37,946 nucleotides of DNA from Spongiactinospora gelatinilytica. Its GTDB lineage: Bacteria; Actinomycetota; Actinomycetes; Streptosporangiales; Streptosporangiaceae. The position numbers and the translations under genes are program-made. The DNA is taken from NCBI RefSeq assembly GCF_003236385.1, contig NZ_POUA01000028.1:1-37946 (forward strand), in the 5' to 3' direction. This document shows, piece after piece, positions 3,661 to 26,005 of the stretch (positions within the stretch are counted from its first letter, which is position 1; the number at the start of each line of letters is the position of its first letter). The notes under the pieces are model-generated. The model saw nothing but the letters and a program-made list of their open reading frames with translations, did no database searches and was not told where the DNA came from.

Positions 3661-4854
3661 TCACATCACCGGATCGAACGCCTGGACGACATTCCGCAGG
3701 GGGCCGGTGATTCGGCTCTTTCGTTCGGCCAAGTCCAGCGCCAGGCTCTTCGCGAATCCTTGATGACGGAACCACTCTGGACTCAGGCTCTGCGCCCGCG
3801 CCGTCACCTCCACCGCGTCATCGACCCGCCGCCGCTCCAGGAGAGAGCGACCGACGTTGAGCAGGTGACGGCCGTGCTGGACCGTGAAGAGACACCCACT
3901 GTCCACGGTGCGGGCGGCCTTGAGGGCGGCCTCTGGTCGGCCCAGCGCGGTCATGATGTGCGCCTGCTGTACCGCCACGTGCGAAGGTCCGAACGACACC
4001 CAGTAGTCGTGCCGGTCCTCCCCTGCGCGGGCGGCACCGGCCGCCGCGGTCCGCAGATAGTCCAGCGCCCGGTCCGCGTCTCCGCGTCCCCCGGCGGCCA
4101 CGGCCGCATGCAGGATCAGGCCACCCCACGCGGTGATCTGCTGCGGTTCTGCCCGGGAGATCGCGATCTCGATCTTGTCGGCCTGCGCGGCGGCGAGGTG
4201 CTCCGCTTCGGTCAGGCGTCCCTGGTGCAGCAGCACCCATGAGTAGGTGCCGTACATGGTGGCCGCCCGCCACTCGTCATCACCATGGCGCGCGGCGTAG
4301 ATCGCGCGCTCTGCGGCGATGGCCGCGGCATCGTCGCGGCCGGTGTGGACCAGGAGGCATGCGGCGAGCTGCCAAGCGTGCGCCAGAGGGCCCGCGGCGG
4401 CGACCAGGTCGGTGGCCTGGAGCTGACGGCAGCGGGCGACAAGATCGGGGAGATCGGCAGCGAGCACCCCGAACTCGCCCGCGAAATATGCGCCATAACA
4501 GCGCTCGACGAGCCGCCACAGCTCCTCGGACGTGGGCGGCTCTCCGTCGTGCGTCGGTGAGAACTCCGGGAGGAGATCGGGGGCGATGACCAGGTCCCGC
4601 ACGGTAAGGACCGTACCGCCGGGCGTGGGGTTGAGGCGGCTGCCCTTCCCGGCGATCATGCCCGGGTCCACGTCGAGCGCCCGCGCCAGCTTCGCCATGC
4701 TGGCCCAGCTCATGCTTTCGCGTACGTCGCGCTCCAGTTTCCCGATCAGGTCGGTCGAGACTCCGGCGGCCTCGGCGAGCTCCGCCTGTGTCAGGCCCCG
4801 TGCGTTGCGGAGGGATCGGAGACGTTGTCCGATGGTCGTGCTAGCGTCGTTCAT
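3661..4854 (-). CDS. XRE-family regulator with long C-terminal helical domain
   Basis: 397 aa. Residues about 7-65 form a Cro/CI-type helix-turn-helix: IGQRLRSLRNARGLTQAELA, then GVSTDLIGKLERD. The C-terminal three quarters are Ala/Arg-rich helices of tetratricopeptide-like character (for example ALDYLRTAAAGAARAGEDRH, SLLERRRVDDAVEVTARA), the usual build of actinobacterial regulators that sense a small peptide or molecule. A polypurine SD region lies just before the ATG. It is 133 bases downstream of the PIMT gene on the same strand, so it may regulate the peptide/PIMT pair. Confidence 0.8.
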   Translation of the reverse strand: MNDASTTIGQRLRSLRNARGLTQAELAEAAGVSTDLIGKLERDVRESMSWASMAKLARALDVDPGMIAGKGSRLNPTPGGTVLTVRDLVIAPDLLPEFSPTHDGEPPTSEELWRLVERCYGAYFAGEFGVLAADLPDLVARCRQLQATDLVAAAGPLAHAWQLAACLLVHTGRDDAAAIAAERAIYAARHGDDEWRAATMYGTYSWVLLHQGRLTEAEHLAAAQADKIEIAISRAEPQQITAWGGLILHAAVAAGGRGDADRALDYLRTAAAGAARAGEDRHDYWVSFGPSHVAVQQAHIMTALGRPEAALKAARTVDSGCLFTVQHGRHLLNVGRSLLERRRVDDAVEVTARAQSLSPEWFRHQGFAKSLALDLAERKSRITGPLRNVVQAFDPVM

Positions 4855-4987: not shown

Positions 4988-6118
4988 CTACCCGATCACC
5001 TGCTGTGGCGTGTCCAGCCACACCTGCTGCCCGTCCGGGCTGACCGTCATCCCGAACCGATCACGCCGCGGCTCGCCCCAGTCCACCCACCGGAAGTAGG
5101 CATCCACCGCCTCGTCCCACACCGGGCGGTCCCCGAGCTGGTACACCGGGAACTCCTCCGCGCCGGCCTTGTAGGTGACGGCCGCCCACTGACTCGGCGT
5201 CTCGGTATCGACCACCCACAGCCGATACCCATCGTCGTCGTCCTCGACGAAAGCACGCAGGCCGGTGATCGCCGCTATGGCCAGGTCCGCGCCGGGCGGG
5301 GCGTTGCCGATGGTTCGTGGGTCGATCCTGGTGGTCCTCCGCTGGCCGGTGCCGTCGTCTTTGTGCCAGCCGGGCATGCGCTGGGAGCGCATGAGCATGT
5401 AGGAGGCGAAGCCGGGGAACCGGCCATGCGCGATGCCGTCCGGGAGAACGACGAGCCGCAGGGTGTGGTTGGTGCCGAATTCCGGGCACCACGGCAGGAC
5501 AATCACCCCGCCCGGCCGGGTCTGCTCGACCCAGGCGTACGGCACCTGGCGGATGCCGCAGGTGACATGCACCCGATCGAACGGCGCGCGATCCGGTGCG
5601 CCCTTGGTGCCGTCTCCGACGACCAGGTGCGGCGTGTGGCCGGCGGCGGACAGGTTCTTCGCGGCCTGCTCGGCCACCGCCGCGTCCACCTCGATGCTGG
5701 TGACGTTCTGCTCACCGACGAGGTGGGACAGCAGGGCGGCGGTCCACCCGGTGCCCGTGCCTATCTCCAGCACCCGGTGCCCAAGTTCCAGCTCGAGCCG
5801 CTGGAGAAGGTCGGCGACGGTGCTGGGTGCCGAAGCCGATGAGGTGTAGTCGCCCGACAGGCTTTTCAGGTCGGTGGTGCCGTCGTCGAGCTGGGTGACG
5901 ATGCTGGTGTCGGAGTAGACGGCGTCCCACCACCCGTCCGGGTCGGTGTCGCGGTCGATCAGATGGGGGCGCGGTCGTGAGACGAGCCCGACCGGCGGAA
6001 TGAACTGGTCTCGTGGCACGGCACGGACCGCGGCTTTGACGCGGTCGCCGATATCTCCTTCCGGGTCGAGGCTCGCGATCAGGTGCTCCATGCGTTGACC
6101 GGTCCTGGCGTCGCTCAT
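4988..6118 (-). CDS. PIMT-like O-methyltransferase, RiPP-associated (imiditide type)
   Basis: 376 aa. The N-terminal half is a protein-L-isoaspartate O-methyltransferase fold: VRAVPRDQFIP (about 32-41), a substrate loop with SSASAPS (93-99), SAM motif I VLEIGTGTGWTAAL (116-129), an acidic residue ending the next strand in SIEVD (141-145), and a glycine-rich VVGDG (166-170). A housekeeping PIMT has about 210-220 residues; here about 150 are added, ending with DRFGMTVSPDGQQVWLDTP (353-371). A C-terminal extension of this kind marks PIMT homologs in RiPP clusters, which methylate an Asp side chain that then cyclises to aspartimide. The start overlaps the stop of the 48-aa peptide gene (ATGA). 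No ATP-grasp or lanthionine enzyme is nearby, which favours an imiditide over a graspetide or lanthipeptide. Confidence 0.8.
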   Translation of the reverse strand: MSDARTGQRMEHLIASLDPEGDIGDRVKAAVRAVPRDQFIPPVGLVSRPRPHLIDRDTDPDGWWDAVYSDTSIVTQLDDGTTDLKSLSGDYTSSASAPSTVADLLQRLELELGHRVLEIGTGTGWTAALLSHLVGEQNVTSIEVDAAVAEQAAKNLSAAGHTPHLVVGDGTKGAPDRAPFDRVHVTCGIRQVPYAWVEQTRPGGVIVLPWCPEFGTNHTLRLVVLPDGIAHGRFPGFASYMLMRSQRMPGWHKDDGTGQRRTTRIDPRTIGNAPPGADLAIAAITGLRAFVEDDDDGYRLWVVDTETPSQWAAVTYKAGAEEFPVYQLGDRPVWDEAVDAYFRWVDWGEPRRDRFGMTVSPDGQQVWLDTPQQVIG

Positions 6119-6261
6119 TTCTTACCGTCGCCGCCCTTCCCATGCTTTCCGGTGCCCGTGCGGTTCTCGTCGTCGTTGCTTCCGGTCCCTCCCGATTTCG
6201 GGTCAAGGGGCTCGTCTTTCGGGCTGTCCGGGTCCTCATGCGCGCCGTACTGGGGGTTCAT
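6115..6261 (-). CDS. Candidate imiditide (aspartimide RiPP) precursor peptide, 48 aa
   Basis: The ATG at 6261 is preceded by GAGGAGG with an 8-nt spacer, and the stop overlaps the methyltransferase start by 4 bp (ATGA), so the two are translationally coupled. The first half is acidic and proline-rich (HEDPDSPKDEPLDP, residues 8-21); the C-terminus is basic and glycine-rich (KHGKGGDGKK, 39-48). There are no Cys residues, so a lanthipeptide is unlikely. Asp45-Gly46 is the only Asp-Gly pair and the chemically easiest place for an aspartimide. The charge segregation fits charge-based recognition by the enzyme. Assignment rests on context and composition; I did not recognise a named precursor family. 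Confidence 0.65.
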   Translation of the reverse strand: MNPQYGAHEDPDSPKDEPLDPKSGGTGSNDDENRTGTGKHGKGGDGKK

Positions 6262-6299
6262 CTCGAGGACCTCCTCGCCTAGGTTTGTTGCCTAGCGTG

Positions 6300-6677: not shown

Positions 6678-6899
6678 CTACCCCTGCGGCGTCTCCGTCC
6701 GCAGCCACGACGGCAGCAGCCGCTGAACCGCCGATAGCGCCATCACCCGGGCGAATCCACCCGCCACGGCCAGCGACGCCGCCACCCACGGCAGCGCCTC
6801 AGGGATGCCGGCCGCGCCGACGATCGCCGGCAACGCCACGGCGATACCCACGGCGGTCTGTACGGCGGTGCGGATGGCCCGCTTGTTCGCGTCGCTCAT
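6678..6899 (-). CDS. Holin-like small membrane protein
   Basis: 73 aa. The start is the ATG at 6899, which overlaps the endolysin stop (ATGA). After a short polar N-terminus (SDANKRAIR) come two hydrophobic stretches, about residues 11-31 and 35-58, joined by a short turn containing PEALP, then a basic tail with LPSWLR. Size, topology and position directly after the amidase are those of a phage holin, which permeabilises the membrane at lysis. There is no family-specific motif; the call rests on context. Confidence 0.7.
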   Translation of the reverse strand: MSDANKRAIRTAVQTAVGIAVALPAIVGAAGIPEALPWVAASLAVAGGFARVMALSAVQRLLPSWLRTETPQG

Positions 6900-7585
6900 G
6901 ACTTCCTCTCCACCAGTTCGCGGACGAGTGCGGTCAGCTCGCCCACCTGCCGCTCCAGGTTGCGGATCCGCTCGTTGCTGTTGAGCAGCAAGCTCTTGGC
7001 CTGCCACTCCGGGTTCTCCTTCGTGCCGAACGGCACTGGGATCTCGTAGGTCCACACGTCCTTCGCGCTCACGTCGTCATCCGCCTCCTTGGGTGATCTG
7101 CTGAACGTGCCGGTCTTGACCAGGCGGTACAGCCGGTCGCCGGGGCACGAGGTGCCAAAAAAATCGCGGTGGCCGCGCACGGCCGCGCCGAGGCCCTTGC
7201 TCATCAGCCAGGCCCGGAGCTGGCGGACGGCGTCGATCTGCTCGGGCGTCGGGTCCTCGTTCGGGCCGCTCATCAGGGTGACCGAGTACCAGTCGCGGTT
7301 GCCCGCTGTGGTGCCTTGCGCCGCCTGGTAGCGGCCCAGGCCACGGCCCTCCAGGATGTAGCCGTGCGGACAGGCCCCCCACGAGTAGCCAAGATCGCTC
7401 CAGCCGCGAGACGGGCCCATGTGAAACGCCCTGGTCTTCCGCCAGTACGCCAGGCAGGCGGAATGCGGCTTCCGGGCCAGGCCCTGATCGCTGCCGTCGT
7501 AGTGGATGGCGAGTCCGCGGCTTGGGCTGGCATGGTCGGCGGCGGACGGCGGCCAGCCGAGCGCTGCGCGCGTGACGAGCTTCAT
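6896..7585 (-). CDS. Endolysin, N-acetylmuramoyl-L-alanine amidase
   Basis: 229 aa. The N-terminal amidase_2/PGRP domain (about 1-155) cleaves the amide bond between MurNAc and L-Ala in peptidoglycan. Likely zinc ligands are His28 (AIHYDG), His139 (GHRDF) and Cys147 (TSCPGD); the 8-residue His-to-Cys spacing matches T7 lysozyme. Tyr67 in LGYSWGACPHG corresponds to its catalytic-site Tyr. The C-terminal part (about 170-229) has WTYEIPVPFG and a coiled coil (NERIRNLERQVGELTALVREL), probably for oligomerisation or wall attachment. No signal peptide, so release depends on the holin. AGGAGG precedes the ATG. Confidence 0.9.
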   Translation of the reverse strand: MKLVTRAALGWPPSAADHASPSRGLAIHYDGSDQGLARKPHSACLAYWRKTRAFHMGPSRGWSDLGYSWGACPHGYILEGRGLGRYQAAQGTTAGNRDWYSVTLMSGPNEDPTPEQIDAVRQLRAWLMSKGLGAAVRGHRDFFGTSCPGDRLYRLVKTGTFSRSPKEADDDVSAKDVWTYEIPVPFGTKENPEWQAKSLLLNSNERIRNLERQVGELTALVRELVERKS

Positions 7586-9954: not shown

Positions 9955-10496
9955 CAGACCTCCCGCCCTAGCACGGTGGACAAGGCCATCCGCTTCTCCC
10001 CCATCCGTTTGCGATCTGGTCGATACGTGGCCTTCAGCGCTTCCAGGCGCTGATACGGATCCACTTCGGTTTCGGAGGAGACATCGGCGTCGAGGGTGCG
10101 CGCGAGCACACGCATACCAGGCTTGGGCCACGCGATGCGGACATGGTCGGCCTCGACCAAGGCGATTCGCTTCAGGTGTGCCTCACGGGCCTGCGCCGTG
10201 CTCTCGGCATTGTCGAGGGTCACTGGCCGCCCTCCGCGGAGCAGGTCACGCGCCGCCCCTGAGCTCGTCATCATCTTCGCGGGGATCTCCAGTTGAAGGA
10301 TCGCCACCCGCAGCAACTCGTCAATGTCGTCAGGATCGAGCCCATATTCGACGGCAAGATTCTCGAAAGTGATGCTCGGCAGCATGTAGCAGTGATCCGG
10401 GGCGTCCGGCATGGCCGGATCTCGCGTCCGGATCGTCCACATTTGCACACCTCCGTGTTCGGATACGTACGCGTCAACAACACGTCGTTCGATCAT
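9954..10496 (-). CDS. Hypothetical phage protein downstream of the tail-tip gene
   Basis: 180 aa from ATG 10496, which shares a base with the tail-tip TAA stop; GGAAG lies 5 nt upstream. An ATG four codons earlier is less favoured. The first half has strands plus SITFENLAVEYGLDPDDIDELL, which looks like a small helical unit; the middle is charged and the C-terminus basic (TYRPDRKRMGEKRMA). No domain recognised. Position suggests a tail accessory or chaperone. Confidence 0.7.
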   Translation of the reverse strand: MIERRVVDAYVSEHGGVQMWTIRTRDPAMPDAPDHCYMLPSITFENLAVEYGLDPDDIDELLRVAILQLEIPAKMMTSSGAARDLLRGGRPVTLDNAESTAQAREAHLKRIALVEADHVRIAWPKPGMRVLARTLDADVSSETEVDPYQRLEALKATYRPDRKRMGEKRMALSTVLGREV

Positions 10497-13400
10497 TATT
10501 GCTTCCATGTGAAGAATTGAATCTCGTATGTCACACCGGGCACGCCCTCCGTGGTACTGAAACTGAAGCCGCCGTTGCCGCGGCCTGACAGAGTCACACC
10601 ATGTGGGCCGCCGACATTGAACATCGTGGCTACTACGATCGCGTCACCGCCAGTAAATGTGAACCCGTAGCCGATGCTGCCTGTTGTGCCTGCCGGGAAC
10701 TGGACGCTGCCGCGTGTGAAAGCACCACCCGATCCAGGCGCGCCGAGCTTGCCGAAAAAGTCGAGCCATCCAGCGTCCACGATCTTTATGCCAAAATCGA
10801 TGTTGGAGCTTCCTGCCGGGCCAAGGGCTAGAGCCACTTGAACGCCGTCCATGGTGAGCGCGCCTTTTCGGTTGGCCCCGCCTGGCGCGGATCCGATCTG
10901 CATGGTGTTGGCCGACGCCACGTACGAGGTCCAGTAGTGGTAGTCAAAACTGTTCTCGTAGAGCCGGATTTCGGGATCGGCACCAAACGTTGGATTGATC
11001 ACGAGGCGCTTCGAGCTGCTATTGACCGTGCTCGTCAGCCGACCGACCATGTCCAAGTCTCCGCTGTTCGCGGAAAGGCTGAACGTCTGTGATCCGCCCG
11101 AGTTATAGCCGCGGATCCCGTTCAGGTCGATCTCGATCCGGCTGCCCGACGTCTGGGAGCGCAGGAGGAAACTACCCGAGGCGGAAATGTTTACCAGCTC
11201 GGCGTTGCCCGCCGAGTACATCCGAATGCCCGCCGCGTCCATCTCAGCGCGGGCGGATGGCGCCACCCCGGAGCGAAGAAAGAACGACCCTGAGGGCGAC
11301 AACGAAACAAGCTGCGTGCTGCCACTGAAAATCCGCAGGCCGTTGGCGATATCCAGCTCCACCCTTGTCCCGGACGTAGCCGAGCGAAGTGCAAAGGAAC
11401 CGCCGGCAAGCAGGGAGACCACCTCGGTCGTGCCACTGAAGATGCGCAGTCCCGATGCGTCGAGCTGGACTCGCGACCCGGACGCCGCCGAGCGCAAGGT
11501 GAAGGTTCCAGTGTTCGAGAGGGTCACCAGCTCGGCGCCGCCCGCGTTATAGCCGTGCAGGCCCGTCGCGTTGAGTTCGACTCGCTGCCCGCTCGCCGCG
11601 GTGCCGATGTTCGCGCCGAGGATCCAGTTCGAGCTGACCGTGCCCGCCGTGACCTTGGATACGCTTAGGTCGCTGATGTGCGCGTTGTCGATCAGCAGCG
11701 CCGTCACCGATGCCGCGTTCGAGGCGGGCGACCGGTTGCCGCTTCGGTCCACCGCGATGACCTTGACATGCCGGAGCGTCGTGTCCGGCTCGGGCACCGT
11801 GCCGACGGCGGCGATTTCAGCCTGGATCATCCCGGCGTTCGCCGCGACCTTGCCTCGCAGCGTCGTGGCATCCGGCGCGAAGCCAGAGGAAGAACCGACG
11901 TGGACCTCTAGGTGGTCGAGGTCGAGTTCAAGGTTGAACGTGCCGCCGCTGACCTTGCCGAGGGTGTGCGTGATCTGGATGGCGATCAGGCTCGCGGCGA
12001 CGACCGGCGGCGCGGGCGTGCTCGGCGGGATCGTGTCGGCTTCGGCCAGCGCCGATTCCGTGACCGACCAGGCGCCGGCGTTGGCCGAGGTGTCCACCGC
12101 GCGGATGCGGAAGTCGTAGACCACACCCGGCGACAGATCGCCGATGACGGCCTGGAGCTCGCCCCACGGTGCGTAGGCGGTCTCCCACTCGGTCGCCGGG
12201 CTCACGCCGTACGCGATCTCGTAGTGGTGGCCGTCCAGGATCGTGCTGCCGTCGGCGTTGAGCGGCAGGTCCCACACCAGAAGCATGCTCGCCCGCGTGT
12301 TGCCCTCGGCGTCCATGTAAACCGCCGACTGGAACGGCAGCACCCAGGGCACAGCGCCCGGGATCGTGCTGTCCGGGATCGGCCGCGGTCCGACGGGCTC
12401 GAAGCCCGTGCTCGTGAGAGAGCGCCCCAGCTCGCCCACCCCGACTGCCGTCGAACCCGTCTCCCACCGCACGTAGTCGGTGAGGTCGAGCCAGGTCCCG
12501 GACTGGTGCCGGTAGGCGACCGTCATGCCCTCGACGACCGGCCAGCTCGCCTCCACACTGCGCAGTGCGATCGGATTGATCCGCTGGCCGCGGAAGGTCA
12601 CCTCGTTGTCGAGGTCATACAAGCCCGCGTCGGGGTCGTAGACGTACACCATGTCGCCCGGCCGGAAACTGCCACGGATCTCGAAGTCCTCGGTGGACAA
12701 CCTGAGCGCGTTGCGGGTGCCGACGAAGCGGTTGAGCTGGAGCTGGGCGCGGGCCTGCGCGTTGCCGGTGACCGTGCCGGACTCGGACACGAGTCGTGTG
12801 CGCTTGACGGGCTGGCCGCGCAGGTCGAGGTACGGGTTCGAGGCGATGTTCGCCGCGCCGGTGGCGGTGGCGGCCCCCTCGCCCTCGGCGAGCAGCACGA
12901 CCCGCGTCGTGAAGTCCTCCACGTCCCGGCTGAGCTCCATTTCACCCGGCAGGCCGGTCAGGGCCAGGTCCCGGCCCTCGGCACCCTTGCGGACGATCAC
13001 GCATGTCGGCGTCGCGGCGTAGAGCTGCGCCTGGGTGCCCGCGTCGAGCGTGCCGTTGCCGTTGACCCGATACTCCGCGCCGAAGGTCGAGCAGACGTAG
13101 GCGAGCGCCTTGCGGCGAGACTCCCACTGGTGCCGGCCGGTGTAGGTGCCGGGGACGCTGTGCAGGGTGCCCTCGACGACCGCTGTGCCGGAGCCGAGGA
13201 TCGCGCGGATGCTGTTCGCGAAGGTCTGGCCGTTGATCGACAAGGGCGACTCGAAGATCTCGCCTTTGTCGTCGCCGTCGCCCAGCCAGAGCTCCATGCC
13301 CTGGCCGGCGATGGCCGTGCGGTCCTCCTCGTCGTCGCGCTTGGTGAGTACGCCGACGTAGCGGGCCATGGTAAGGAGCTGGTCGCCGTACTGCGCGGGC

Positions 13401-13525
13401 GCCACGCGGCCGGGAACGATCGCGACGTGGCCGAAGTACAGGAGAGCGTCGAGGGTCTCGCGCGGGCAGCCGTCGAGCTGGAGCGACCACGAGCCGAGCC
13501 CCTGGATGACCTCGTTCACGCTCAT
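10496..13525 (-). CDS. Tail-tip/minor structural protein with FN3 domain and beta repeats
   Basis: 1009 aa. The N-terminal about 380 residues resemble actinophage minor tail proteins of the siphovirus tip (LQLDGCPRETLDALLYFG, then a domain with repeated strands). Around 400-510 is a fibronectin type III-like unit (YEIAYGVSPATEWETAY, VVYDFRIRAVDTSANAG), possibly with a second after it. About residues 645-825 hold five 36-residue repeats, and the C-terminal about 150 residues form a beta-rich domain (GSIGYGFTFTGGDAIVV, YEIQFFTWKQ at the end). Probably the receptor-contacting component at the tail end. It overlaps the upstream gene by 4 bp. Confidence 0.8.
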   Translation of the reverse strand: MSVNEVIQGLGSWSLQLDGCPRETLDALLYFGHVAIVPGRVAPAQYGDQLLTMARYVGVLTKRDDEEDRTAIAGQGMELWLGDGDDKGEIFESPLSINGQTFANSIRAILGSGTAVVEGTLHSVPGTYTGRHQWESRRKALAYVCSTFGAEYRVNGNGTLDAGTQAQLYAATPTCVIVRKGAEGRDLALTGLPGEMELSRDVEDFTTRVVLLAEGEGAATATGAANIASNPYLDLRGQPVKRTRLVSESGTVTGNAQARAQLQLNRFVGTRNALRLSTEDFEIRGSFRPGDMVYVYDPDAGLYDLDNEVTFRGQRINPIALRSVEASWPVVEGMTVAYRHQSGTWLDLTDYVRWETGSTAVGVGELGRSLTSTGFEPVGPRPIPDSTIPGAVPWVLPFQSAVYMDAEGNTRASMLLVWDLPLNADGSTILDGHHYEIAYGVSPATEWETAYAPWGELQAVIGDLSPGVVYDFRIRAVDTSANAGAWSVTESALAEADTIPPSTPAPPVVAASLIAIQITHTLGKVSGGTFNLELDLDHLEVHVGSSSGFAPDATTLRGKVAANAGMIQAEIAAVGTVPEPDTTLRHVKVIAVDRSGNRSPASNAASVTALLIDNAHISDLSVSKVTAGTVSSNWILGANIGTAASGQRVELNATGLHGYNAGGAELVTLSNTGTFTLRSAASGSRVQLDASGLRIFSGTTEVVSLLAGGSFALRSATSGTRVELDIANGLRIFSGSTQLVSLSPSGSFFLRSGVAPSARAEMDAAGIRMYSAGNAELVNISASGSFLLRSQTSGSRIEIDLNGIRGYNSGGSQTFSLSANSGDLDMVGRLTSTVNSSSKRLVINPTFGADPEIRLYENSFDYHYWTSYVASANTMQIGSAPGGANRKGALTMDGVQVALALGPAGSSNIDFGIKIVDAGWLDFFGKLGAPGSGGAFTRGSVQFPAGTTGSIGYGFTFTGGDAIVVATMFNVGGPHGVTLSGRGNGGFSFSTTEGVPGVTYEIQFFTWKQ
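11060..11595 (-). repeat. Five tandem 36-residue beta repeats within the tail-tip gene
   Basis: Each unit follows the pattern G-x-R-[VI]-[EQ]-[LIM]-[DN]-x-x-G-[LI], then [FY]-[SN]-[AGS]-G, then [LF]-[VTS]-x-[ILS]-S, then G-[ST]-F-x-L-R-S. Copies begin RVELNATGL, RVQLDASGL, RVELDIANGL, RAEMDAAGI and RIEIDLNGI. Nucleotide copies are diverged. The pattern suggests a fibrous beta stalk. Confidence 0.75.
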
Positions 13526-14688
13526 CTACGTACCGCCGCTGTGGTTTCGGGCAGCGCGCCGATGTACTGGTCACGCAGGTGCGCCGCCTGATCGCCGGAC
13601 ACCGCGCTCCCCCCTCCCGCCACCACGCCCAGCCAGCAGTCCAGGACCGTCGTGCTGGTCTTCGTCAGGCCGCCGGCAGCGTGCGGGTCGAAGTTCCGCG
13701 CCGATCCGGCGATGGCCCGGTTCCCGTCCGCGTCGTCCGTCGGGCGGACCACATACGACGTGCTGTCGGTCATCGTCTCTGCGCTGGCCAGGTAGACGCT
13801 GATCGTTCCGCTGTCTCCACGCTGCACGTAGACCTCAACGGTGCGAGACCCCCTGCGCACCGTGAGGTCTACGGCGACCCGGCCGGGCGCGCGCGACTCG
13901 GTGAGCCGCAGCGTCGCCGCCTCCGGGTCGTTTCGGAGGATCGTCACCGACTCCCATGAGGTGATCGGCCCCGATCCGATGTCGATGTTCCAGACCTTCG
14001 GCTTCCAGCCGCCGGTGTAGCTCCCGACCTCCATCGACCCGGCGGTGTAGCTGCGCCTGGCCCTGACGAGCCCGTTGGACAGCTCCCACTGATCCACGTC
14101 CACCGCGGCCGTCAGCCCTGTCAGCTCGCGCGGCGGGTACCCCGTCCGGAGCCGGACCCGGCCGCGCAGGTAGTCGCCGACCGCACAACCCCACCGCGGC
14201 GACACCCCGGCGGGCACCTGCCGGTAGACGGTGATCGGCCCGTCCTCCCCGGTTCGGACCATCGTGCTCGCCGTCGTCGAGCCGGTGTAGTAGCCGTACG
14301 CGCCGATGGCGGGCGCGTGCCAGCGCTCGCCGCTCAGCGAGAAGTCGTTCGCTCGGACGGCGCCGGTGAGCCTGCTCTCCAGGTCGATCACGTTGTCTGG
14401 CCCGTGGCGCACGAGCGACAGCGACCAGTCCGCCCAGCCGGAGTACCCGGCGAAGTCGGTCAGGTTCGAGGAACTGGACGTCACGGTGTAGTAACCGTTG
14501 CGCTCGTCCTTCTGGCCGAAGAGGACGGCGACCAGCGCACCGCGCTGGCCCAGCACCGCCTCATGCCGGGCCAGCACCTCCCCGCGCGTGATGATCGGCC
14601 ATGCCTCCCGGCCGGACAGGGTCATCGCCGCCTCGCCGGTCTCGTCCACGGTGTGCGGCTCGGTCAGCGTGACGCGGCCGACGATCAC
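13522..14688 (-). CDS. Distal tail-like protein
   Basis: 388 aa, directly after the tape measure gene, with 4-bp overlaps at both ends. Its beginning (GRVTLTEPHTVDETGEAAMT) and strand-rich body (YYTVTSSSSNLTDFAGYSGW) fit the Dit-like/minor tail protein that caps the tube in siphoviruses. The C-terminal half is also beta-rich (TVEVYVQRGDSGTISVYL) and might bind carbohydrate. No catalytic motif seen. The call rests mainly on gene order. Confidence 0.65.
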   Translation of the reverse strand: MIVGRVTLTEPHTVDETGEAAMTLSGREAWPIITRGEVLARHEAVLGQRGALVAVLFGQKDERNGYYTVTSSSSNLTDFAGYSGWADWSLSLVRHGPDNVIDLESRLTGAVRANDFSLSGERWHAPAIGAYGYYTGSTTASTMVRTGEDGPITVYRQVPAGVSPRWGCAVGDYLRGRVRLRTGYPPRELTGLTAAVDVDQWELSNGLVRARRSYTAGSMEVGSYTGGWKPKVWNIDIGSGPITSWESVTILRNDPEAATLRLTESRAPGRVAVDLTVRRGSRTVEVYVQRGDSGTISVYLASAETMTDSTSYVVRPTDDADGNRAIAGSARNFDPHAAGGLTKTSTTVLDCWLGVVAGGGSAVSGDQAAHLRDQYIGALPETTAAVRR

Positions 14689-17600
14689 ATCTGCTCCCGG
14701 TCGAGGTTGCGCAGAACCTCGCGGATCTGTAGGCCGAGCCTGCGCGCCCCGGCGTCGTCACTGCGGAGATCGACGACTCCTTCCACGTTCACGGTGAGGA
14801 TGACGTTCTCGATGACGTTCCCCCCTCCCCGTCCGCCGCCCGCCGCCACGGGCGCTGCGACGGCCCCGGCGAGCATCTCGGCGGGTGCCGCGGTGGCCAT
14901 GGTTCCGATGACGCCGATCGTCGCGGCGGCGGCCATGCGGTCGGCCGCCGCGGTGACCATGCCGAGCGCGCCGTCCATGCCGGCGACGAGGCCGGCGGGC
15001 AGCATCTTCCCGATCTCCGCGAACAGCTTCGACGGCGATCGGATTCCCAACGCGTCTTTGACCCATTGCGGCATAATCGAGGAAAAGAAATTGTAGATGG
15101 CGTTCTTAAACCATTCCCACATACTGACCAAGCCGTTCCACAATCCATTGATGAGGTCACGGCCCGCATTGAATAGGGTTCCGCCGAGATTGCCAAGAGC
15201 TCCGGCGATCTGGCCCGGAAGATTTCGAAAGAAATTAAGCACGGTATTGATGCCGTCCGACACGGCGCGCCGGATCGCCTCCCACGCCTGGCCGAGGGCA
15301 CCGGTCACGCGGTCCCATGCCTCATTCCATCGATCCCGGATCGTGGACATGATGTTGGAGATAATCGTCCGCACGGCTTCGATGGCGTTGCCGACCAGCG
15401 TCCGGATGATCTCCCAGTTGCGCGCCACGCGCCCGGTGATTGCCTCCCAGGTGCGGCTCCACCAGTCCGAGATCGCTGTGACCACTCGGACGATCACGTC
15501 TTTGATGCCGTTGACAATACCGGTCACCCATTGGAGGGCTTTGTCGAACCACGCCTTTATCGCGTTGATCATGTCGGGGATGATCGAATGCCCGACGAGG
15601 ACGTCATAAAGCCACTTGAACGCACCGACCACCAGATTAACGACCCACTTCACGACCGTCGCAATAGCCTCAATGGCGGGAACAAGAATCGCGACAAGGA
15701 AATCGGCGAGCGTCGCCACAAGGCCGATAAGCGGCGGCAGAATGATATTGATGATCTGGATGAGCGGATCCAGGAGAGGCAGGATCGCGGCGATCAGGTC
15801 GGCGAATGACTTGACGAGCGGCATCACAGCGTTGAGCAGGCCACCGAAAAGCTTGGCGATCGTCTCGATCAGTGGTGACAGTGCCGTCGCCAGATCGACG
15901 ATCACGGGCAGAATCGCCTGGATGAGCGGCATGAACGCCTGAACCAGGTCCATCACGATCTGGATCAGCGGCGTCACGGCGGGCAGCAGCCCGACGATCG
16001 CCTCGACGACCTTGATGATCAGCGGTGCGAGGGCGGTCAGGGCGTCGGTCAGGCTCTGCCCGAGCGTGGTCACGACATCGACGATCACCGGCAGTAGTGG
16101 CGTCAAGGCGTCGAGAAGTTGCCCGACCGCCTGGACGAGGATCTGTCCGATCTGCCCTGCGACCTTGGCCACCAGGTCGATCACCGGGGTCAAGATCGGC
16201 AGAAGCTGGGCGATCGCCTCTGTGACCCTCAGAATGAACGGCGCGATCGTCTCAAGGGCCATGCGCAGCAGGTCGCCGACCACCTCTGCCAGGCGCCCGA
16301 TCGACGGCAGCAGTGGAACGATCGCCTTGAGCAGGGTGGACAGGACCGTGAGCACGGTGGTCCCGATCACCGCTGCGATCTTGATCAGGATCGGAAGGAG
16401 CGGCATCGCCGCAGTGACGAGCCCGGCGACCACGTTGGCGAGCTGGGTGAGTACCGGAGCCGCGGCGACCGCGACGGACAGTAGCGAGGCTCCCATCGTG
16501 GCCGCGAGGTCCGAGATCAGCGGGACAAGCGGCTGCACCGCGCCCAGAAGTGTGCTGATCGCGCCGATCAACGCGTCCCCCAGGATGCTCGCCACCTGGC
16601 CGACCACCGGCAGCAGAGGCGACATCGCCTGGAGGACCTCGCGCAGGATGTCGCTGAGCTGGCCAAGGAGCGGGGTGCCGGCCTGGACGATCCCCACCAG
16701 GGCGGGAAGGGCCGCCTGGGCGAGCTGGCCCAGCGTCGGCAGAAGTGGGGCAACGGCGGGTAGAAGCGCGCTCAAAAACTGGGCGGCGAGTTGCACTACC
16801 TGCCCTATCAGCGGCCCTATCGCGGCTGCGAGCTGGCCGAGTCCATCCACCACAGGCACCAAGGCGGGCGTCAATGTCCGGATCGCGCCGGTGAGCGCCG
16901 TGGTGATCACCGCTGCGAGCTGCCCGGCGATCGGCAGAAGCGGGGCCAGCGCGACGAGGACGCCGCTGATCGCCTGCCCGAGCGGCTGGAGGGCAGGGCC
17001 AAGTGCGGCGATCCCTGTCGCGAGCCCCGATAGGAGCGCCTGTGCCCCGGGCAGCAGAGCGGCGATCCCCTGGCCGAGCGCGACCACTGCGGGCATGATC
17101 GTTTGGATGCCGGAGGCCAGGCTGCCGATCAGGAGTACGGCCACCTCGGCAAGGAGCGGCACGAGTGGAGCGGCGGCTACGGCCACGCTGGTCAAGGCGT
17201 TCGCGATCGGGGCCAGCGCCGGGCCGATCGCGCCGATCCCTGCCGCCAAGGCGCTCCCGAGCGCCTGGACGCCAGGGAGAAGTGAGGCGATCGCCCCGCC
17301 GAGCTGGGCGAGCACGGGCCCGGCGGCAGATAGGATGCCGCCCAATACCTGCCCGAGCGGGGCTAGCGCCGGCGCGATCGCCCGTGCTCCGGCCGCGATC
17401 CCGTCGATCAGCGCGAAAATCCCGGGTGCCAGGGCGGAGATCGCCCCGGCCAGCCCGTTCGCGGCGGCGACGACCACCGGCCCGAACGCCTGCACCGCGG
17501 CCACCGCGACCTGCGCGAGCAATAAGACCAGCGGCGCGGCGGCCGACACGATTCCTGCTACCGCCTGTGCCAGCGGCAGCGCCGCCCGTACCGCGATGGC

Positions 17601-19274
17601 CAGTGCCTCCCCGATCGCGTCCAAAGCCGTGGCTGCGGCGGGCAGGAGAGCGGATACTGCTGGCCTGAGCTGGCCCAATACGTTCCCTACGGCGACGATG
17701 AGCGCCTGGAGGTGGGGCAGCAGGGAGGTGACCGCGGCCCCGAGCGTGACCAGCAGGGGTGCAGCCGAGGCCAAGCCGCTGGAGAGCGCGGCTCCCAGCG
17801 GGGCCAGGGCAGGGCCGATCATCTGCACCGCGGCCGTCAAGGCGCCGACCAGCGCGAGGACCCCAGGTGCGACGGCGGCCAGCGCGGGGATGAGCCCGGA
17901 GATCGCCGAGGTGAGCAGCGGGCCGACCGCGACCGCGAGCTGCGCGACCAGCGGCGCGAGCTGCGCGATTCCGGCTGCGATCAGGATGACGAGCGGGACG
18001 AGCGTGGCTCCGATCTGCGCCAGCGCCCGGAACACGGCGACCAGCGCCTCTTGGCCGGCCGTCGAATCGACCCACGCGTGCGCCGCATCGACGAGCTGGC
18101 CGAGGACGCCGAGCACGCCGGTCCCCGACGCCTGGACCGCGCGGAGGACACCCACGACGATCCCGCCGAGATCGCCCAGGATCGCGCCGAGCTGACGCAG
18201 CACGACCAGCGCGCCGTCCATCCACGCCACGGCCTGCCCGGATGCCGCGATCCGCGACATCCACTCGCCGAACCTCGTGGCCACCTCGGCGATCTCCGGC
18301 GCCAGCCCGGACAACCAGACCGCGCCGACCACACCGAGATCGCGCAGCCCGTCCAGCACCGGCCGGATCGCGGGTATCAGGGCGGCGATGGCATCGCGGG
18401 TCGCGCGGAAGACGGTCTCGACCGCTCTGAGGGTCTCTGCTGACCGGGCGAACTCCAGCGCGGCCAGTGCCGCCCGGCCGAACTCGGCGGCCACTTCCCC
18501 GATGCCGGTGTTCAAGACGTTCAGCAGCGGCAGCAGCGACCACATCTGGCCGACCAGCGGGCCGAAGATCCCGTCCTGGGCCGTGTCCTTCAGCCGCTGG
18601 AACGCCGGCGCCATCTGGAACAGCTCGTAGGCGACCTCGGAGGCCGACTGGCTGAGGTCTTTGGTGGCCTCCATGAATTTGAGGTAGTCGCCGCTGATCG
18701 CCGCGGCGAAGCCATCAGCGATCCCCGAGAGGCCCAGCTTCAGGGTGCCCAGAGCCGCGCTCCACAGCAGCGCGGCCCCAGGCAGCGCCGCCAGCGCGCC
18801 GGCCGCCGGAGCGAGCGCCGCGACCAGACCCGCAACTCCCGTCGTTGCGGCCGACGCCGCAGCCGCCAGCGCGCCGATCGCTATCCCGGCGCTCGCGGCG
18901 GCGGCACCGATGCGGGCCGCCGCCGAACCTAATCCCGCGAGCGCGCCCGCGGCGCGGCCCGCGATGGAGCCGAGGCCACCCAGCAGGCCCCCGATGCGCC
19001 CGACCTGTGACGCGAGCGAGCCGAGTCGTCCCGCCGCGCCGCCGGCGGCGGAGCCGAGGCCGGCGAACGCCGTCGCCGCCGAGCGGAGGCCAGTGCCGGT
19101 GCGCCCGGCCGCACCGCTCAGTACGTCGAAGCCGCCGCCCAGGCCGCGGAGCCGCCGGTCGGTGGCGTCGGCCTGGCGGGCGACACGCTCCAGGCCGCGG
19201 GTGGTCTCGTTGACGCCGCGATCGACGTCAGCGATCACCCCCAGCCGGATGAGCAGATTCTTGATCGTCGCCAC
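14685..19274 (-). CDS. Tail tape measure protein
   Basis: 1529 aa, the longest gene of the window, placed after the G/GT chaperones as in lambda-like phages. GTG at 19274 has GGAGG 6 nt upstream, inside the end of gpGT. The N-terminus is a coiled-coil/Gly-Ala region; residues about 170-1240 are long hydrophobic helices with repeating APLLPxLxQL and ALAPALAPLG phrases; about 1250-1450 include Trp-rich amphipathic helices (ISDWWSRTWEAITGR, NAIYNFFSSIMPQWVKDALG, then IRSPSKLF), common near the C-terminus of phage tape measures. It sets tail length and may help DNA entry. Codon use is like its neighbours. Confidence 0.9.
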   Translation of the reverse strand: MATIKNLLIRLGVIADVDRGVNETTRGLERVARQADATDRRLRGLGGGFDVLSGAAGRTGTGLRSAATAFAGLGSAAGGAAGRLGSLASQVGRIGGLLGGLGSIAGRAAGALAGLGSAAARIGAAAASAGIAIGALAAAASAATTGVAGLVAALAPAAGALAALPGAALLWSAALGTLKLGLSGIADGFAAAISGDYLKFMEATKDLSQSASEVAYELFQMAPAFQRLKDTAQDGIFGPLVGQMWSLLPLLNVLNTGIGEVAAEFGRAALAALEFARSAETLRAVETVFRATRDAIAALIPAIRPVLDGLRDLGVVGAVWLSGLAPEIAEVATRFGEWMSRIAASGQAVAWMDGALVVLRQLGAILGDLGGIVVGVLRAVQASGTGVLGVLGQLVDAAHAWVDSTAGQEALVAVFRALAQIGATLVPLVILIAAGIAQLAPLVAQLAVAVGPLLTSAISGLIPALAAVAPGVLALVGALTAAVQMIGPALAPLGAALSSGLASAAPLLVTLGAAVTSLLPHLQALIVAVGNVLGQLRPAVSALLPAAATALDAIGEALAIAVRAALPLAQAVAGIVSAAAPLVLLLAQVAVAAVQAFGPVVVAAANGLAGAISALAPGIFALIDGIAAGARAIAPALAPLGQVLGGILSAAGPVLAQLGGAIASLLPGVQALGSALAAGIGAIGPALAPIANALTSVAVAAAPLVPLLAEVAVLLIGSLASGIQTIMPAVVALGQGIAALLPGAQALLSGLATGIAALGPALQPLGQAISGVLVALAPLLPIAGQLAAVITTALTGAIRTLTPALVPVVDGLGQLAAAIGPLIGQVVQLAAQFLSALLPAVAPLLPTLGQLAQAALPALVGIVQAGTPLLGQLSDILREVLQAMSPLLPVVGQVASILGDALIGAISTLLGAVQPLVPLISDLAATMGASLLSVAVAAAPVLTQLANVVAGLVTAAMPLLPILIKIAAVIGTTVLTVLSTLLKAIVPLLPSIGRLAEVVGDLLRMALETIAPFILRVTEAIAQLLPILTPVIDLVAKVAGQIGQILVQAVGQLLDALTPLLPVIVDVVTTLGQSLTDALTALAPLIIKVVEAIVGLLPAVTPLIQIVMDLVQAFMPLIQAILPVIVDLATALSPLIETIAKLFGGLLNAVMPLVKSFADLIAAILPLLDPLIQIINIILPPLIGLVATLADFLVAILVPAIEAIATVVKWVVNLVVGAFKWLYDVLVGHSIIPDMINAIKAWFDKALQWVTGIVNGIKDVIVRVVTAISDWWSRTWEAITGRVARNWEIIRTLVGNAIEAVRTIISNIMSTIRDRWNEAWDRVTGALGQAWEAIRRAVSDGINTVLNFFRNLPGQIAGALGNLGGTLFNAGRDLINGLWNGLVSMWEWFKNAIYNFFSSIMPQWVKDALGIRSPSKLFAEIGKMLPAGLVAGMDGALGMVTAAADRMAAAATIGVIGTMATAAPAEMLAGAVAAPVAAGGGRGGGNVIENVILTVNVEGVVDLRSDDAGARRLGLQIREVLRNLDREQM

Positions 19275-19904
19275 CGATGTCCTCCCTGGTCAGGCCCCAG
19301 TTGGGGAGGAAGTCGGAGAACTTCGGCTTGCGGCCTTTGTCGCCGCTCAGCGCCGAGACGATGTAGAACGCGGTACGCGCTGCGAGGTTGTCGTCACGCT
19401 GCTGGCCGAGCGGCCCGGTCAGCCGCTCATAGGCCCTCCACTCCGTCAGCTCGCGTGATGAGATCCGAACGAGGAGCTCGGCGACGGGAAGTCCGAGATG
19501 GGCGGCGAGTCGGAAGTAGAACTGCCGTTCTGGCCGCCGTCGGAATTTCCCGCCAGCTCGTCCACGTCCTGATCGGTCATGCCGCTCAGCCTCTGCGCGA
19601 CCCTGAAGAGCCGCTCCAGTGCACCCGCCGCCTTCGAGCCCAGCTTGAGGACGTCCGCCGCGTTGAACATGGGGCTGCCGTCCTCGTTGATCGCGCACGC
19701 CGCGACCAATCTCGCCCGGACGTTCTTCAGGTTCACTTCGCGATTACCACTTCGGCCGCGCTTGAGCGACGCCTCCTCGAAGGCGTCGCGCTCATCGCCC
19801 CGAAGACCTCTGATGCGGACCTCGCCGCCCCATTCGGGTACGGCGACGTCCTCATAGGTGATGTCGTGGGCCTGCCAGATCTGGTCCTTGCTGAGTAGAG
19901 CCAT
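19228..19904 (-). CDS. Tail assembly chaperone gpGT (made by -1 frameshift)
   Basis: 225 aa predicted. Ribosomes start at ATG 19904 as for gpG, slip back one base on GGGAAAT (19551-19545) and continue in the frame giving FRRRPERQFYFRLAAHLGLP, SSRELTEWRAYERLTGP and FSDFLPNWGLTREDIGGDDQ. This T part is typical of siphovirus tail assembly chaperones (REWxAYxxxxGPLG). It has no start of its own, and its end overlaps the tape measure start by 47 bases. It recruits and coats tape measure during tail tube assembly in lambda; the same is inferred here. Confidence 0.85.
19446..19904 (-). CDS. Tail assembly chaperone gpG
   Basis: 152 aa in the zero frame. The ATG at 19904 has AAGGAG 10 nt upstream. 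Residues 1-115 are a compact domain (DITYEDVAVPEWGGEVRIRG, LRGDERDAFEEASL, RARLVAACAINEDG, LFRVAQRLSGMTDQDVDEL). The tail after the slippery site is Ser/Pro-rich (SSTSDSPPISDFPSPSSSFG) and looks like filler read past the shift point. It lies 17 bases after the major tail protein, as expected. Confidence 0.85.
   Translation of the reverse strand: MALLSKDQIWQAHDITYEDVAVPEWGGEVRIRGLRGDERDAFEEASLKRGRSGNREVNLKNVRARLVAACAINEDGSPMFNAADVLKLGSKAAGALERLFRVAQRLSGMTDQDVDELAGNSDGGQNGSSTSDSPPISDFPSPSSSFGSHHAS
19545..19551 (-). promoter_or_regulatory. Programmed -1 frameshift site GGGAAAT
   Basis: Read on the minus strand, G GGA AAT matches X XXY YYZ exactly in the gpG frame (GCG-GGA-AAT). Slipping by -1 gives GGC-GGG-AAA-TTC and joins the downstream T frame. 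The codons match the gpG register counted from ATG 19904. Confidence 0.85.
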
Positions 19905-19921
19905 GGGGGTCTTGCTCCTTC

Positions 19922-20410
19922 TTACGCTGGGATGACGATGTCTTCGGCGGGCTCGCGCACGATCGCGCAAGCGACCTGAAGGCGCCCGGCCTCTTCCTCG
20001 CCGACGTTGACCAACTTGGTGGCGGTCGTGACCCTCACGGGGAACACGTCGCAGAGACGCCCGGCGATGTCGCCGCCGGGCATGCGGACGATAAAGCCCG
20101 AGGTGTCGCGCGGGAACAGGGCCCTCGCGTCTACACCGGACGGGTCGAGATAGAACGTGATCGAACTGTCGTCTGCGGTGATCTTGCCGGGGATCCTCGC
20201 GACGAACCGCGAGTCACCGTCCGGCGTCTCAATCAGCTCGCCGGTGGTGCTCCATCCCTCGGTCGCCGCGACCTCGCGAGTCAGGTCCGTCCCGGCGTTG
20301 ATCTCCGCGCGGGTGATCGCCTGAATGTTGGCGACGCTCGGGCAGAAAAGCCACTTAGCTGTACCGGTCGGCCAATAGCGATCGACCGCGGCGATCGGCG
20401 TAGCGGGCAT
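19922..20410 (-). CDS. Major tail (tube) protein
   Basis: 162 aa, immediately before the chaperone genes. The sequence is beta-rich, with FCPSVANIQAITRAEINAGT, an acidic loop around ATEGWSTTGELIETPDG, then SRFVARIPGKITADDSSITF and FIVRMPGGDIAG, the pattern of actinophage tube subunits that polymerise into hexameric rings. Its ATG overlaps the preceding stop. Being a bulk virion protein, it should be one of the most expressed genes. Confidence 0.8.
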   Translation of the reverse strand: MPATPIAAVDRYWPTGTAKWLFCPSVANIQAITRAEINAGTDLTREVAATEGWSTTGELIETPDGDSRFVARIPGKITADDSSITFYLDPSGVDARALFPRDTSGFIVRMPGGDIAGRLCDVFPVRVTTATKLVNVGEEEAGRLQVACAIVREPAEDIVIPA

Positions 20411-20643
20411 TACTCATCCCCCCTGGTGCGCCGACCCCGCGGCGACTTCTCGGTTTCGGGCAAAGAAGAAGCCCCGGCGGCGGCCGGGGCTTGATCGGTC
20501 TTCTCAGGTGCGGGTGGATCCGGCGGCAGCTCCTCAGCGAGTCGCCAGCCCGCGCGCTGATGGTGGGACACGGCCTGCCGTGGCACGTGCGCCGACTGGC
20601 CCGGCAGGTTCGGGTGGATCATCTCCACGGTTTCCAGCTCCAC
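20410..20643 (-). CDS. Small phage protein, 77 aa
   Basis: Begins ELETVEMIHPNLPGQSAHVP, followed by AVSHHQRAGWRLAEELP. Short proteins with this 'HPxLPGQxxxVPxxAVxxHxxAGW' layout recur in actinophages and prophages near capsid or tail genes; role unknown. The second half is Pro/Ala/Lys-rich and disordered, and its DNA carries a terminator-like hairpin at 20469-20492. Confidence 0.65.
   Translation of the reverse strand: MELETVEMIHPNLPGQSAHVPRQAVSHHQRAGWRLAEELPPDPPAPEKTDQAPAAAGASSLPETEKSPRGRRTRGDE
20469..20492 (-). terminator. Terminator-like hairpin inside the gene before the major tail protein
   Basis: AAGCCCCGGC (20469-20478) pairs perfectly with 20483-20492 over a 4-nt loop. Reading on the minus strand, the stem is followed by CTTCTTTG, a T-rich run that is otherwise rare here. 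It could attenuate the operon in front of the tail genes. The bases also encode an Ala/Pro linker, so a purely coding origin is possible. Confidence 0.45.
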
Positions 20644-20651
20644 AGCTCCCC

Positions 20652-21158
20652 CTAGCTGGCTGCACCGACGACGACGATCTGATAGGTCACCCCGGACCCG
20701 GCGCCGGAGTTGGCGACGTGCAGCAGGTCGGCGGTGCTCGCGGTGACCGCGTAGCCGGTGGCGTCCGGGGCGAGCAGCGCGAGGACACCGCCGGGGCGCA
20801 CGGCGAGGGTGTGCGTGTCGGCGCCGAACGGGCCCACCCAGCCGTTGCTCGCCGCGCCACCGAGCACGACGTTGTTCACGTTTCCGACTGTTGCGGACAC
20901 GATCAGGGCCTTGACGCGGGCCAGGGTGATCGTCGCGCCGAACGGGTCGGTCAGTGTCCCGGCGAGGTCGATGTCCTCGCTGGCGGACGCGGCGAGGGTC
21001 CGCTGATCGGACCAGATGCGGTTCGCCTGGTTGAGGCCGGCGCCGTCGGTCAGGGTGACCTGCCGGCCCACGCTGAGCGGTGCGCTCGCGGTGGTCAGGT
21101 CCTGCGCGCTGGTCAGATCGGCCGCGAGCTGCACGAGCGCGCGCACGCTAAGAGCCAT
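20652..21158 (-). CDS. Phage structural protein, possibly decoration
   Basis: 168 aa. It has the features of a recurrent phage virion protein: DLTTASAPLSVGRQVTLTDG, GLNQANRIWSDQRTLAASA, EDIDLAGTLTDPFGATITLA, VKALIVSATVGNVNNVVLGG and GVTYQIVVVG at the end. Almost entirely beta. It lies between the gp10-like gene and the tail tube gene. Function is not established; capsid decoration or tail accessory are both possible. Confidence 0.6.
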   Translation of the reverse strand: MALSVRALVQLAADLTSAQDLTTASAPLSVGRQVTLTDGAGLNQANRIWSDQRTLAASASEDIDLAGTLTDPFGATITLARVKALIVSATVGNVNNVVLGGAASNGWVGPFGADTHTLAVRPGGVLALLAPDATGYAVTASTADLLHVANSGAGSGVTYQIVVVGAAS

Positions 21159-21177
21159 GGGTGTCCTCTCTCATCGG

Positions 21178-21627
21178 TCATCGGAAGCCCGCGCGCCGCG
21201 CGACCTCGTCCACGACCTCGGCAACATCGCGGTCAGCCGTCGCGAACCAGGGCCGGGCGCCTCGGACCAAGAACGGCCGCGCCCGGTGCCCGTACCAGCG
21301 GCCGTCCTTGTTGCCGAAGAACGGCGCCAGGAAGATGCCGTCTTCGTCGTTGTGCTCGTACGGTCGGGCGTGCGGCGCCTTGTGCCGGTTCACCTCGATG
21401 GCCAGGCCCGGGTTTCGCTGGGACAGGCCGATCTTGAGGCGGGTCGCCCGCGGGATCCGGGTGGACCAGGCCGCCCTCAATCGCACGCTGGCCAGGGCCT
21501 TGTTGCCGACGGACTTGAGTCGGGGCCGCAGATCCTGGCGGATCTCCGGCGGCATCTTGCCGAGCTGCCTGGCGAACTCGCGGATCTCGGCCGCGCCGTG
21601 GGTGTACGTCCGGGTCTTCCTGGCCAT
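21178..21627 (-). CDS. HK97 gp10-like head-tail/tail completion protein
   Basis: 149 aa from ATG 21627 (TGATG overlap with the preceding gene). The N-terminus has a long helix (AAEIREFARQLGKMPPEIRQ), followed by a basic region (DLRPRLKSVGNKALASVRLR) and a beta part, RPYEHNDEDGIFLAPFFGNK, then RARPFLVRGARPWFATADRD. This layout fits the HK97 gp10-like family acting at the neck or tail completion step. It lies between terminator and tube genes, as usual. Confidence 0.65.
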   Translation of the reverse strand: MARKTRTYTHGAAEIREFARQLGKMPPEIRQDLRPRLKSVGNKALASVRLRAAWSTRIPRATRLKIGLSQRNPGLAIEVNRHKAPHARPYEHNDEDGIFLAPFFGNKDGRWYGHRARPFLVRGARPWFATADRDVAEVVDEVARRAGFR

Positions 21628-22121
21628 CAGAACGGCCTCGTGAACGCCTCGACGTGGACCGTGAATCTGAGGACCGCGGTCGCGCCGTGATCGGTCTGGA
21701 CCTGGACGAGCTGGTCGGTGCTGATGCGTGTCCGGCCGACGACTCCCCCGAGCGTGCCGTCGGCGGCCAGCTCCGCGGCCAGCGCATTGACCATCTCGTA
21801 CGTGCGATCCAGCACCGGGAGCGGCTCGTCGTCGTGGCCGTGCCAGCTCGTGGCCAGGCACGTCACGTCGTAGGACTCCCGGTCGGGGGCCGGTGTCGCC
21901 TGCCGCTGGGTCCGGGTGCTGGTCACGGCCGCGTCGCCGGGTTCGCCTGTGAAGGCGATCAGGACCATCTCGTCCGAGTCCATCTGGCCGACGTTCGGCT
22001 GCCCGAGCACGACCGTCACCGGCACCTCACGGCCCCGGACGACCCGCGGCGGCACGGCCCTTTCGGCGGCGGCCACCAGCGCCCGCAGGCAGGCCGGGAC
22101 GGTGCTTACGGTCGGCTCCAT
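21627..22121 (-). CDS. Tail terminator-like protein
   Basis: 164 aa. The alternating helix/strand pattern (VPACLRALVAAAERAVP, PVTVVLGQPN, RESYDVTCLATSWHG, VLDRTYEMVNALAAELAADG, then VLRFTVHVEAFTRPF) resembles gpU/tail-terminator folds. Its position just after the connector and before the gp10-like gene supports this. The gene is preceded by a 100-bp gap that holds two palindromes. Confidence 0.6.
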   Translation of the reverse strand: MEPTVSTVPACLRALVAAAERAVPPRVVRGREVPVTVVLGQPNVGQMDSDEMVLIAFTGEPGDAAVTSTRTQRQATPAPDRESYDVTCLATSWHGHDDEPLPVLDRTYEMVNALAAELAADGTLGGVVGRTRISTDQLVQVQTDHGATAVLRFTVHVEAFTRPF

Positions 22122-22147
22122 CGGCCGTGTCCTCCTAGGGGTTCCGG

Positions 22148-22192
22148 GGTCAAGCTGGGCTTGACCTGGCAGAGGTCAAGCTGGACTTGACC
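22148..22192. promoter_or_regulatory. Two tandem palindromes, GGTCAAG-N5-CTTGACC
   Basis: Copy 1, 22148-22166 (centre CTGGG); copy 2, 22174-22192 (centre CTGGA). Each is a perfect 7-bp inverted repeat with a 5-nt centre, and the starts are 26 bp apart. They lie in one of the few non-coding gaps of the late operon, between the connector and terminator genes. They look like binding sites for a dimeric regulator. No clear promoter boxes were found around them. Confidence 0.55.
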
Positions 22193-22221
22193 GTCGATCG
22201 GCGAACAGGGCGCGGTCGGTA

Positions 22222-24377: not shown

Positions 24378-24385
24378 AGCACCCC

Positions 24386-25699: not shown

Positions 25700-25706
25700 A
25701 ACGCGC

Positions 25707-26003: not shown

Positions 26004-26005
26004 CA

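Follow-up and report, generated by a model that had tools for sequence, protein, structure and literature searches.

An imiditide-class precursor and methyltransferase gene pair, probably carried as prophage cargo, in Spongiactinospora

Our analysis of a 37,946-nucleotide stretch of Spongiactinospora gelatinilytica DNA (contig NZ_POUA01000028.1, hereafter the window) points to an imiditide (type I pamtide) gene pair, a small peptide gene and a PIMT-type methyltransferase gene, that probably travels as prophage cargo and whose peptide is predicted to be methylated at Asp31 and converted to an aspartimide. The pair adds a member to a known class and stands near the founding example; what deserves attention is its setting, and the prophage, which goes beyond what a first-pass annotation of the same letters had described, is the surprise. 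The features on which the argument rests are as follows.

3661..4854, minus strand: XRE regulator with a TPR-like part, next gene downstream of the methyltransferase (phrog_5823, E 9e-93; 94% identical in S. rosea)
4988..6118, minus strand: PIMT-type peptide aspartyl methyltransferase (PAMT), 376 aa (Pfam PCMT, N. maritima identity, phrog_13505)
4991..5383, minus strand: C-terminal domain of the enzyme, residues 246-376, varying between sister species (pLDDT 92; PDB 1DL5)
5069..5089, minus strand: WxxxGxP motif, residues 344-350 (WVDWGEP), located by alignment, the motif being that of the review PMC13001092
5228..5245, minus strand: acidic loop EDDDDG, residues 292-297, aligning near DEDGD of the N. 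maritima enzyme
5747..5761, minus strand: SAM site GTGTG, residues 120-124, invariant in 13 sequences
6115..6261, minus strand: predicted imiditide (type I pamtide) precursor, 48 aa, whose relatives precede relatives of the enzyme
6169..6171, minus strand: codon of Asp31, the likely modified residue (Asp in 32/32 aligned precursors)
6270..6276, minus strand: ribosome-binding site GAGGAGG, from the sequence
6680..6902, minus strand: holin-like small membrane protein at the end of the late region (phrog_4316, of unknown function)
6896..7585, minus strand: phage endolysin (phrog_1493, E 2.8e-36; Amidase_2)
10496..37091, minus strand: phage tail, capsid, portal and terminase genes of the late region, from profile matches

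The precursor gene (6261 to 6115, minus strand) encodes MNPQYGAHEDPDSPKDEPLDPKSGGTGSNDDENRTGTGKHGKGGDGKK*, its ATG follows 8 nt after the GAGGAGG, and its TGA stop and the ATG that starts the methyltransferase gene share the ATGA at 6115-6118. This is the two-gene layout of an imiditide or type I pamtide, a small precursor adjoining a PIMT homologue. The first-pass annotation had described the 48-aa peptide with its GAGGAGG, the ATGA overlap with a 376-aa PIMT-like methyltransferase, a C-terminal extension of that enzyme (which ends DRFGMTVSPDGQQVWLDTPQQVIG) and Asp45-Gly46 as the sole Asp-Gly of the peptide, and all of these are borne out. The net charge of the precursor (K/R minus D/E) is -4 over the first 24 residues and +4 over the last 16, and as it has no Cys it lacks the two CxxCxGxG motifs of a cysimiditide (type II pamtide). 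An ATP-grasp, LanB/LanC/LanM or lasso enzyme had been reported as absent from the adjacent genes, and no match to any of these was found among the neighbour ORFs scanned from 11 to 10508 (the libraries differed between ORFs, and ORF 9754-10131 was left out), neither a primary RiPP cyclase nor the ATP-grasp ligase of a graspetide cluster with a PIMT being seen there.

The methyltransferase matches Pfam PCMT (E 2.1e-32) and PHROGs family phrog_13505 (E 3.2e-109), and over 374 positions it is 59% identical to the enzyme of a Nonomuraea maritima CGMCC 4.5681 locus (L024) which we take to be, very probably, NmaM. In the founding species, N. maritima, NmaA and NmaM are likewise two genes, precursor then PIMT homologue, and together with the alignment of the two precursors this identity upholds the imiditide class proposed earlier. 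Across an alignment of 13 relatives GTGTG, W344 and P350 are invariant and the Gly of WxxxGxP nearly so. The AlphaFold model of the enzyme (mean pLDDT 92) has as its best PDB match the Thermotoga PIMT 1DL5 (E 1.2e-21), and the enzyme thus carries the extra C-terminal domain with WxxxGxP. An extra domain of the 1DL5 type is described for RiPP-associated PIMT enzymes in the main text of PMC10787088 and PMC13001092, and the latter also describes the WxxxGxP motif of this domain and the role of the acidic loop of NmaM. A search for defence systems returned a partial mad2 match (enzyme residues 97-213) and otherwise helix-turn-helix matches of the XRE regulator; with just these matches, we rejected a link to defence.

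Scanning genome contigs with the enzyme gave 45 loci, and 32 precursors were aligned, from 22 of these loci, from three Spongiactinospora genomes (6), from the window and from viral sequences (3). The column of Asp31 is Asp in all 32, as compared to at most 20 in any column of 60 sets that were shuffled and realigned, and an ungapped D-x(5-7)-G-x-H occurs in 24 of the 32 (1000 shuffles: mean 2.3, maximum 8), counts that are not of independent events since start codons were set by eye, acceptance was partly by likeness and close relatives are included. The first-pass annotation had named methyltransferase homologs without a conserved small peptide upstream as evidence against it, and here the outcome is mixed: 22 of the 45 loci do have a precursor, and the remaining 23, truncated enzymes, two unrelated methyltransferases and loci without a visible precursor among them, gave none that was accepted. 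When a profile built from 29 cellular precursors, the window's among them, was run on 8,777 small ORFs from 57 viral loci, 6 matched at E<1, one of the six being that of the S. rosea locus (L107), itself in the profile, and relative to the start of a methyltransferase gene all six end at -3 to +27 nt; a phmmer search of the same 8,777 ORFs with two precursors (L028, L030) gave no match at E<=5. That relatives of the peptide precede relatives of the enzyme, and that the six profile matches fall at methyltransferase starts, supports the idea that the pair is more than a chance arrangement.

Judged by conservation, Asp31 is likely the modified residue. On the reading we favour, the ribosome would make the 48-aa peptide and the methyltransferase together via the ATGA overlap, the C-terminal domain would probably hold the peptide by charge (acidic loop to basic tail), and the PIMT domain would methylate Asp31 on its side chain; attack on this ester by the Glu32 backbone amide would then form the aspartimide ring, which would hydrolyse to isoAsp and Asp. 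Asp-Glu is, to our knowledge, not an aspartimide-prone pair, which counts against Asp31, whereas Asp-Gly is the classic one. This is what speaks for the site chosen in the first-pass annotation, Asp45-Gly46 of the basic tail, where such a pair is present once in the peptide. However, Asp fills the Asp45 column in 15 of 29 precursors, and Asp31 aligns with Asp28 of the N. maritima precursor, which is followed by His; we therefore rejected Asp45 and regard an imiditide pair modified there as quite improbable. In NmaA the modified Asp is directly followed by His (PMC13001092) where the n+1 residue of the window's peptide is Glu, and a second Asp-His of the N. maritima precursor at 39-40 leaves some doubt on the site. 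The acidic head and basic tail, earlier taken as signs of a possible new subtype, follow a published pattern, as most type I precursors have conserved acidic residues N-terminally and a basic C-terminus (main text of PMC10787088).

A different reading, in which the enzyme is a repair PIMT or belongs as methyltransferase to a graspetide (ATP-grasp) system, with the peptide incidental, draws on its best NCBIfam match, TIGR04188 (ATP-grasp system methyltransferase), and on an ATP-grasp-like gene that adjoins a paralog on another contig (C209) of the window's genome. We consider it highly improbable, since the TIGR04188 match (309.5 bits) falls under the cut-off of 380, no ATP-grasp match was found among the neighbour ORFs scanned, the ATP-grasp-like gene on C209 has its own methyltransferase alongside, and the precursor is conserved (Asp31 in 32/32).

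The imiditide pair lies beside phage genes. On the minus strand, from about 6.7 kb to the end of the window, are endolysin, tail, capsid, portal and terminase genes, and the holin-like protein is 58-61% identical to a gene of the phage Alderaan annotated as holin. A genome that we take to be Spongiactinospora rosea keeps the window's order, terminase to endolysin, holin, pair, XRE and GntR, with identities of 97% (terminase), 92% (endolysin), 88% (holin-like protein), 76% (precursor), 76% (methyltransferase), 94% (XRE regulator) and 94% (GntR). There the element measures 83,632 bp and splits a Tad-type ATPase gene, the first half of which lies at C1:438561-439391 and the second half from 523024; the first half is followed by a serine integrase gene (439424-440821) with Resolvase and Recombinase domains. 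Joining the host flanks at a shared GA gives GEVRGQEVTDLLQALNTGHEGG, an open frame as in a related Spongiactinospora genome (G002), in which the ATPase gene runs unbroken through the junction point. The enzyme gene of S. rosea (512361-513503) is within this element, the pair being about 9.5 kb from its right end, and in this species the pair thus lies between both ends of an integrated phage element. The S. rosea prophage may be decayed, as its terminase gene has one in-frame TAG. The 957-contig assembly of the window's own genome yielded no match to the integrase or to the C-terminal half of that ATPase gene, and we therefore infer the containment of the window's own copy from synteny.

Two other candidates for the integration system of the element were rejected. 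The sole PF00589 match among those listed on C1 stands at 900 kb, and the integrase found is a serine recombinase, which together dismiss a tyrosine integrase. A tRNA as attachment site was likewise dismissed, as scans of the window and of five S. rosea pieces, which span C1:443-540 kb, showed none. At the other end of the window, an ORF at 11-1057 has, by eye, a kinase-like HGDL...LDW stretch and no Pfam or NCBIfam match at E 0.001; a 38% relative of it was found within the S. rosea element.

Related pairs are also borne by phages isolated as particles. A tblastn search of 50,697 phage records with the enzyme gave 12 records, 8 of which cover at least 80% of the query; these 8 represent five Streptomyces phages (three listed twice), phages of Streptomyces venezuelae, at about 40% identity. 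Both of the two examined, Austintatious and Alderaan, have a small annotated gene ahead of the enzyme gene; its product contains MSGKHGGGSGSGSGGSQQDDSS and has a basic end. The two genes, gp24 and gp25 in Austintatious and HQ601_00033 and HQ601_00034 in Alderaan, sit between lysis genes and an HTH repressor. No integrase annotation is present among the 53 Austintatious features or among 42 of the 50 Alderaan features, and Alderaan is termed virulent in PMC9239200, which also presents RNA-seq from an infection with this phage. The WxxxGxP of the Austintatious enzyme reads WNGRSRP, without the Gly. As the Austintatious peptide does not match the precursor profile at E<1, and the Streptomyces phage peptides gave no phmmer match either, we treat the phage peptide as a candidate precursor, backed by its position, its head, an Asp and its tail.

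IMG/VR yielded 3 loci when searched with the one protein and 55 when searched with the alignment. In 14 of these 55 (L107-L110, L114-L120, L122, L124 and L147, L107 being the S. rosea locus) a small ORF whose head reads [GA][KAQR]H lies near the extrapolated enzyme start, ending -13 to +27 nt from it (+66 in L124). L115 and L119 are as long as isolated phages, and in L112 relatives of phage early genes and Cro lie to one side, with relatives of holin and tail genes to the opposite side; a provirus in a collection of this kind may bring host flanks with it, which makes cases close to a contig end weak. Peptides with two CxxC-type motifs, cysimiditide-like, stand directly before the methyltransferase in L132, L149 and L156, and other peptide types would be missed as the small-ORF listing was filtered by composition. 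In L149 and L156 such a pair stands between a repressor relative and an endolysin relative. The XRE-TPR regulator has relatives in five of the 55 loci (L112, L117, L118, L120 and L127), besides that of S. rosea, at a distance of about 1.7-3.3 kb upstream of the methyltransferase; it is conceivable that this regulator belongs to the pathway and senses the peptide.

The pair could instead be a chromosomal one alongside which a phage integrated by chance, a reading that gains from most relatives not being beside such phage genes and from the element ends not having been found in the window's genome. The position within the S. rosea element and the related pair on phages isolated as particles both argue against it, and we regard it as unlikely. 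We consider it about as likely as not that imiditides and cysimiditides are recurrent actinophage cargo, often placed between lysis and immunity genes. If they are, the function of the peptide should be sought in phage biology, such as lysogen fitness, phage exclusion or harm to competitors of the lysogen. Given the apparent carriage of the pair by a phage, its modified peptide would most likely serve the lysogen or the phage.

Whether and how aspartimide chemistry yields biological function remains undiscovered according to PMC13001092, and a related pair on phages of Streptomyces venezuelae ATCC 10712, a laboratory host, would open this question to simple phage genetics. The occurrence of the enzyme family in phages is already recorded, without a RiPP reading, as phrog_13505 carries the PHROGs label 'methyltransferase'. 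A RiPP cluster borne by a prophage has a precedent in sublancin of SPbeta, from which the window's pair differs in chemistry and in phage. SpaA/SpaM of Streptomyces sparsogenes resemble the pair by description, not by sequence, with a linear precursor of about 45 aa that has an acidic head, a basic tail and a conserved Asp, and a PAMT with a C-terminal domain (main text of PMC10787088). Cysimiditides share the enzyme family and the two genes (main text of PMC13001092 and PMC10787088), whereas the window's peptide is without cysteine. The word 'phage' does not occur in the main text of PMC10787088 and PMC13001092; as the founding imiditide paper and the supplements, with their tables, lay outside the literature search, phage-borne members may stand in the tables of the imiditide and pamtide papers. 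Literature searches for pamtide with phage and for Austintatious found none, that for imiditide with phage found a review of RiPP applications (PMC11048544), and a broader one found only the papers already cited and a lasso peptide review.

Most relatives of the pair are chromosomal. The window's pair adjoins phage genes; at the N. maritima locus L024 the view took in 3 kb of surroundings. The enzyme has 7 matches at E<=1e-40, counting fragments, in each of the three Spongiactinospora genomes, and the 35 ORFs around five paralogs in the window's genome matched 15 families once each, an integrase among them, none of which is described as capsid, tail or terminase; imiditide pairs therefore occur both with and without nearby phage genes. 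Plasmid records matching the enzyme number 529, all below 60% identity, and 80 of these match over at least 80% of the enzyme. A conserved third gene was rejected, as none of the best 25 of 102 Pfam families matched more than 3 of the 92 flank ORFs of 21 loci (L010-L030), ORFs that are part of a selected set of 146. At least 2 flank ORFs of these loci match endolysin-type profiles (best 25 of 73 families), and some of the loci may thus also neighbour phage or host amidases.

Three further observations concern the relatives and the enzyme itself. On contig C209 of the window's genome (L086, 6609-8404) a paralogous methyltransferase (47-49%) stands beside an ATP-grasp maturase-like gene that matches TIGR04187 at 236 bits (cut-off 350), and this locus is likely a graspetide cluster. 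Saccharomonospora phage PIS 136 (L094, 7698-10243) has pieces of a PIMT, followed some 1.8 kb further along by a small protein that carries two CxxC motifs; this may be a disrupted cysimiditide pair in a further phage. Finally, the C-terminal domain of the window's enzyme is identical to that of S. rosea at 83 of 131 residues versus 209 of 245 for the preceding part, and DNA identity to S. rosea drops to 61-67% at window 4950-5400, which codes for this domain, compared to 77-79% in the precursor region and 82-98% in the flanking bins (up to 6000 and down to 2400); the recognition domain of the enzyme may thus have been exchanged.
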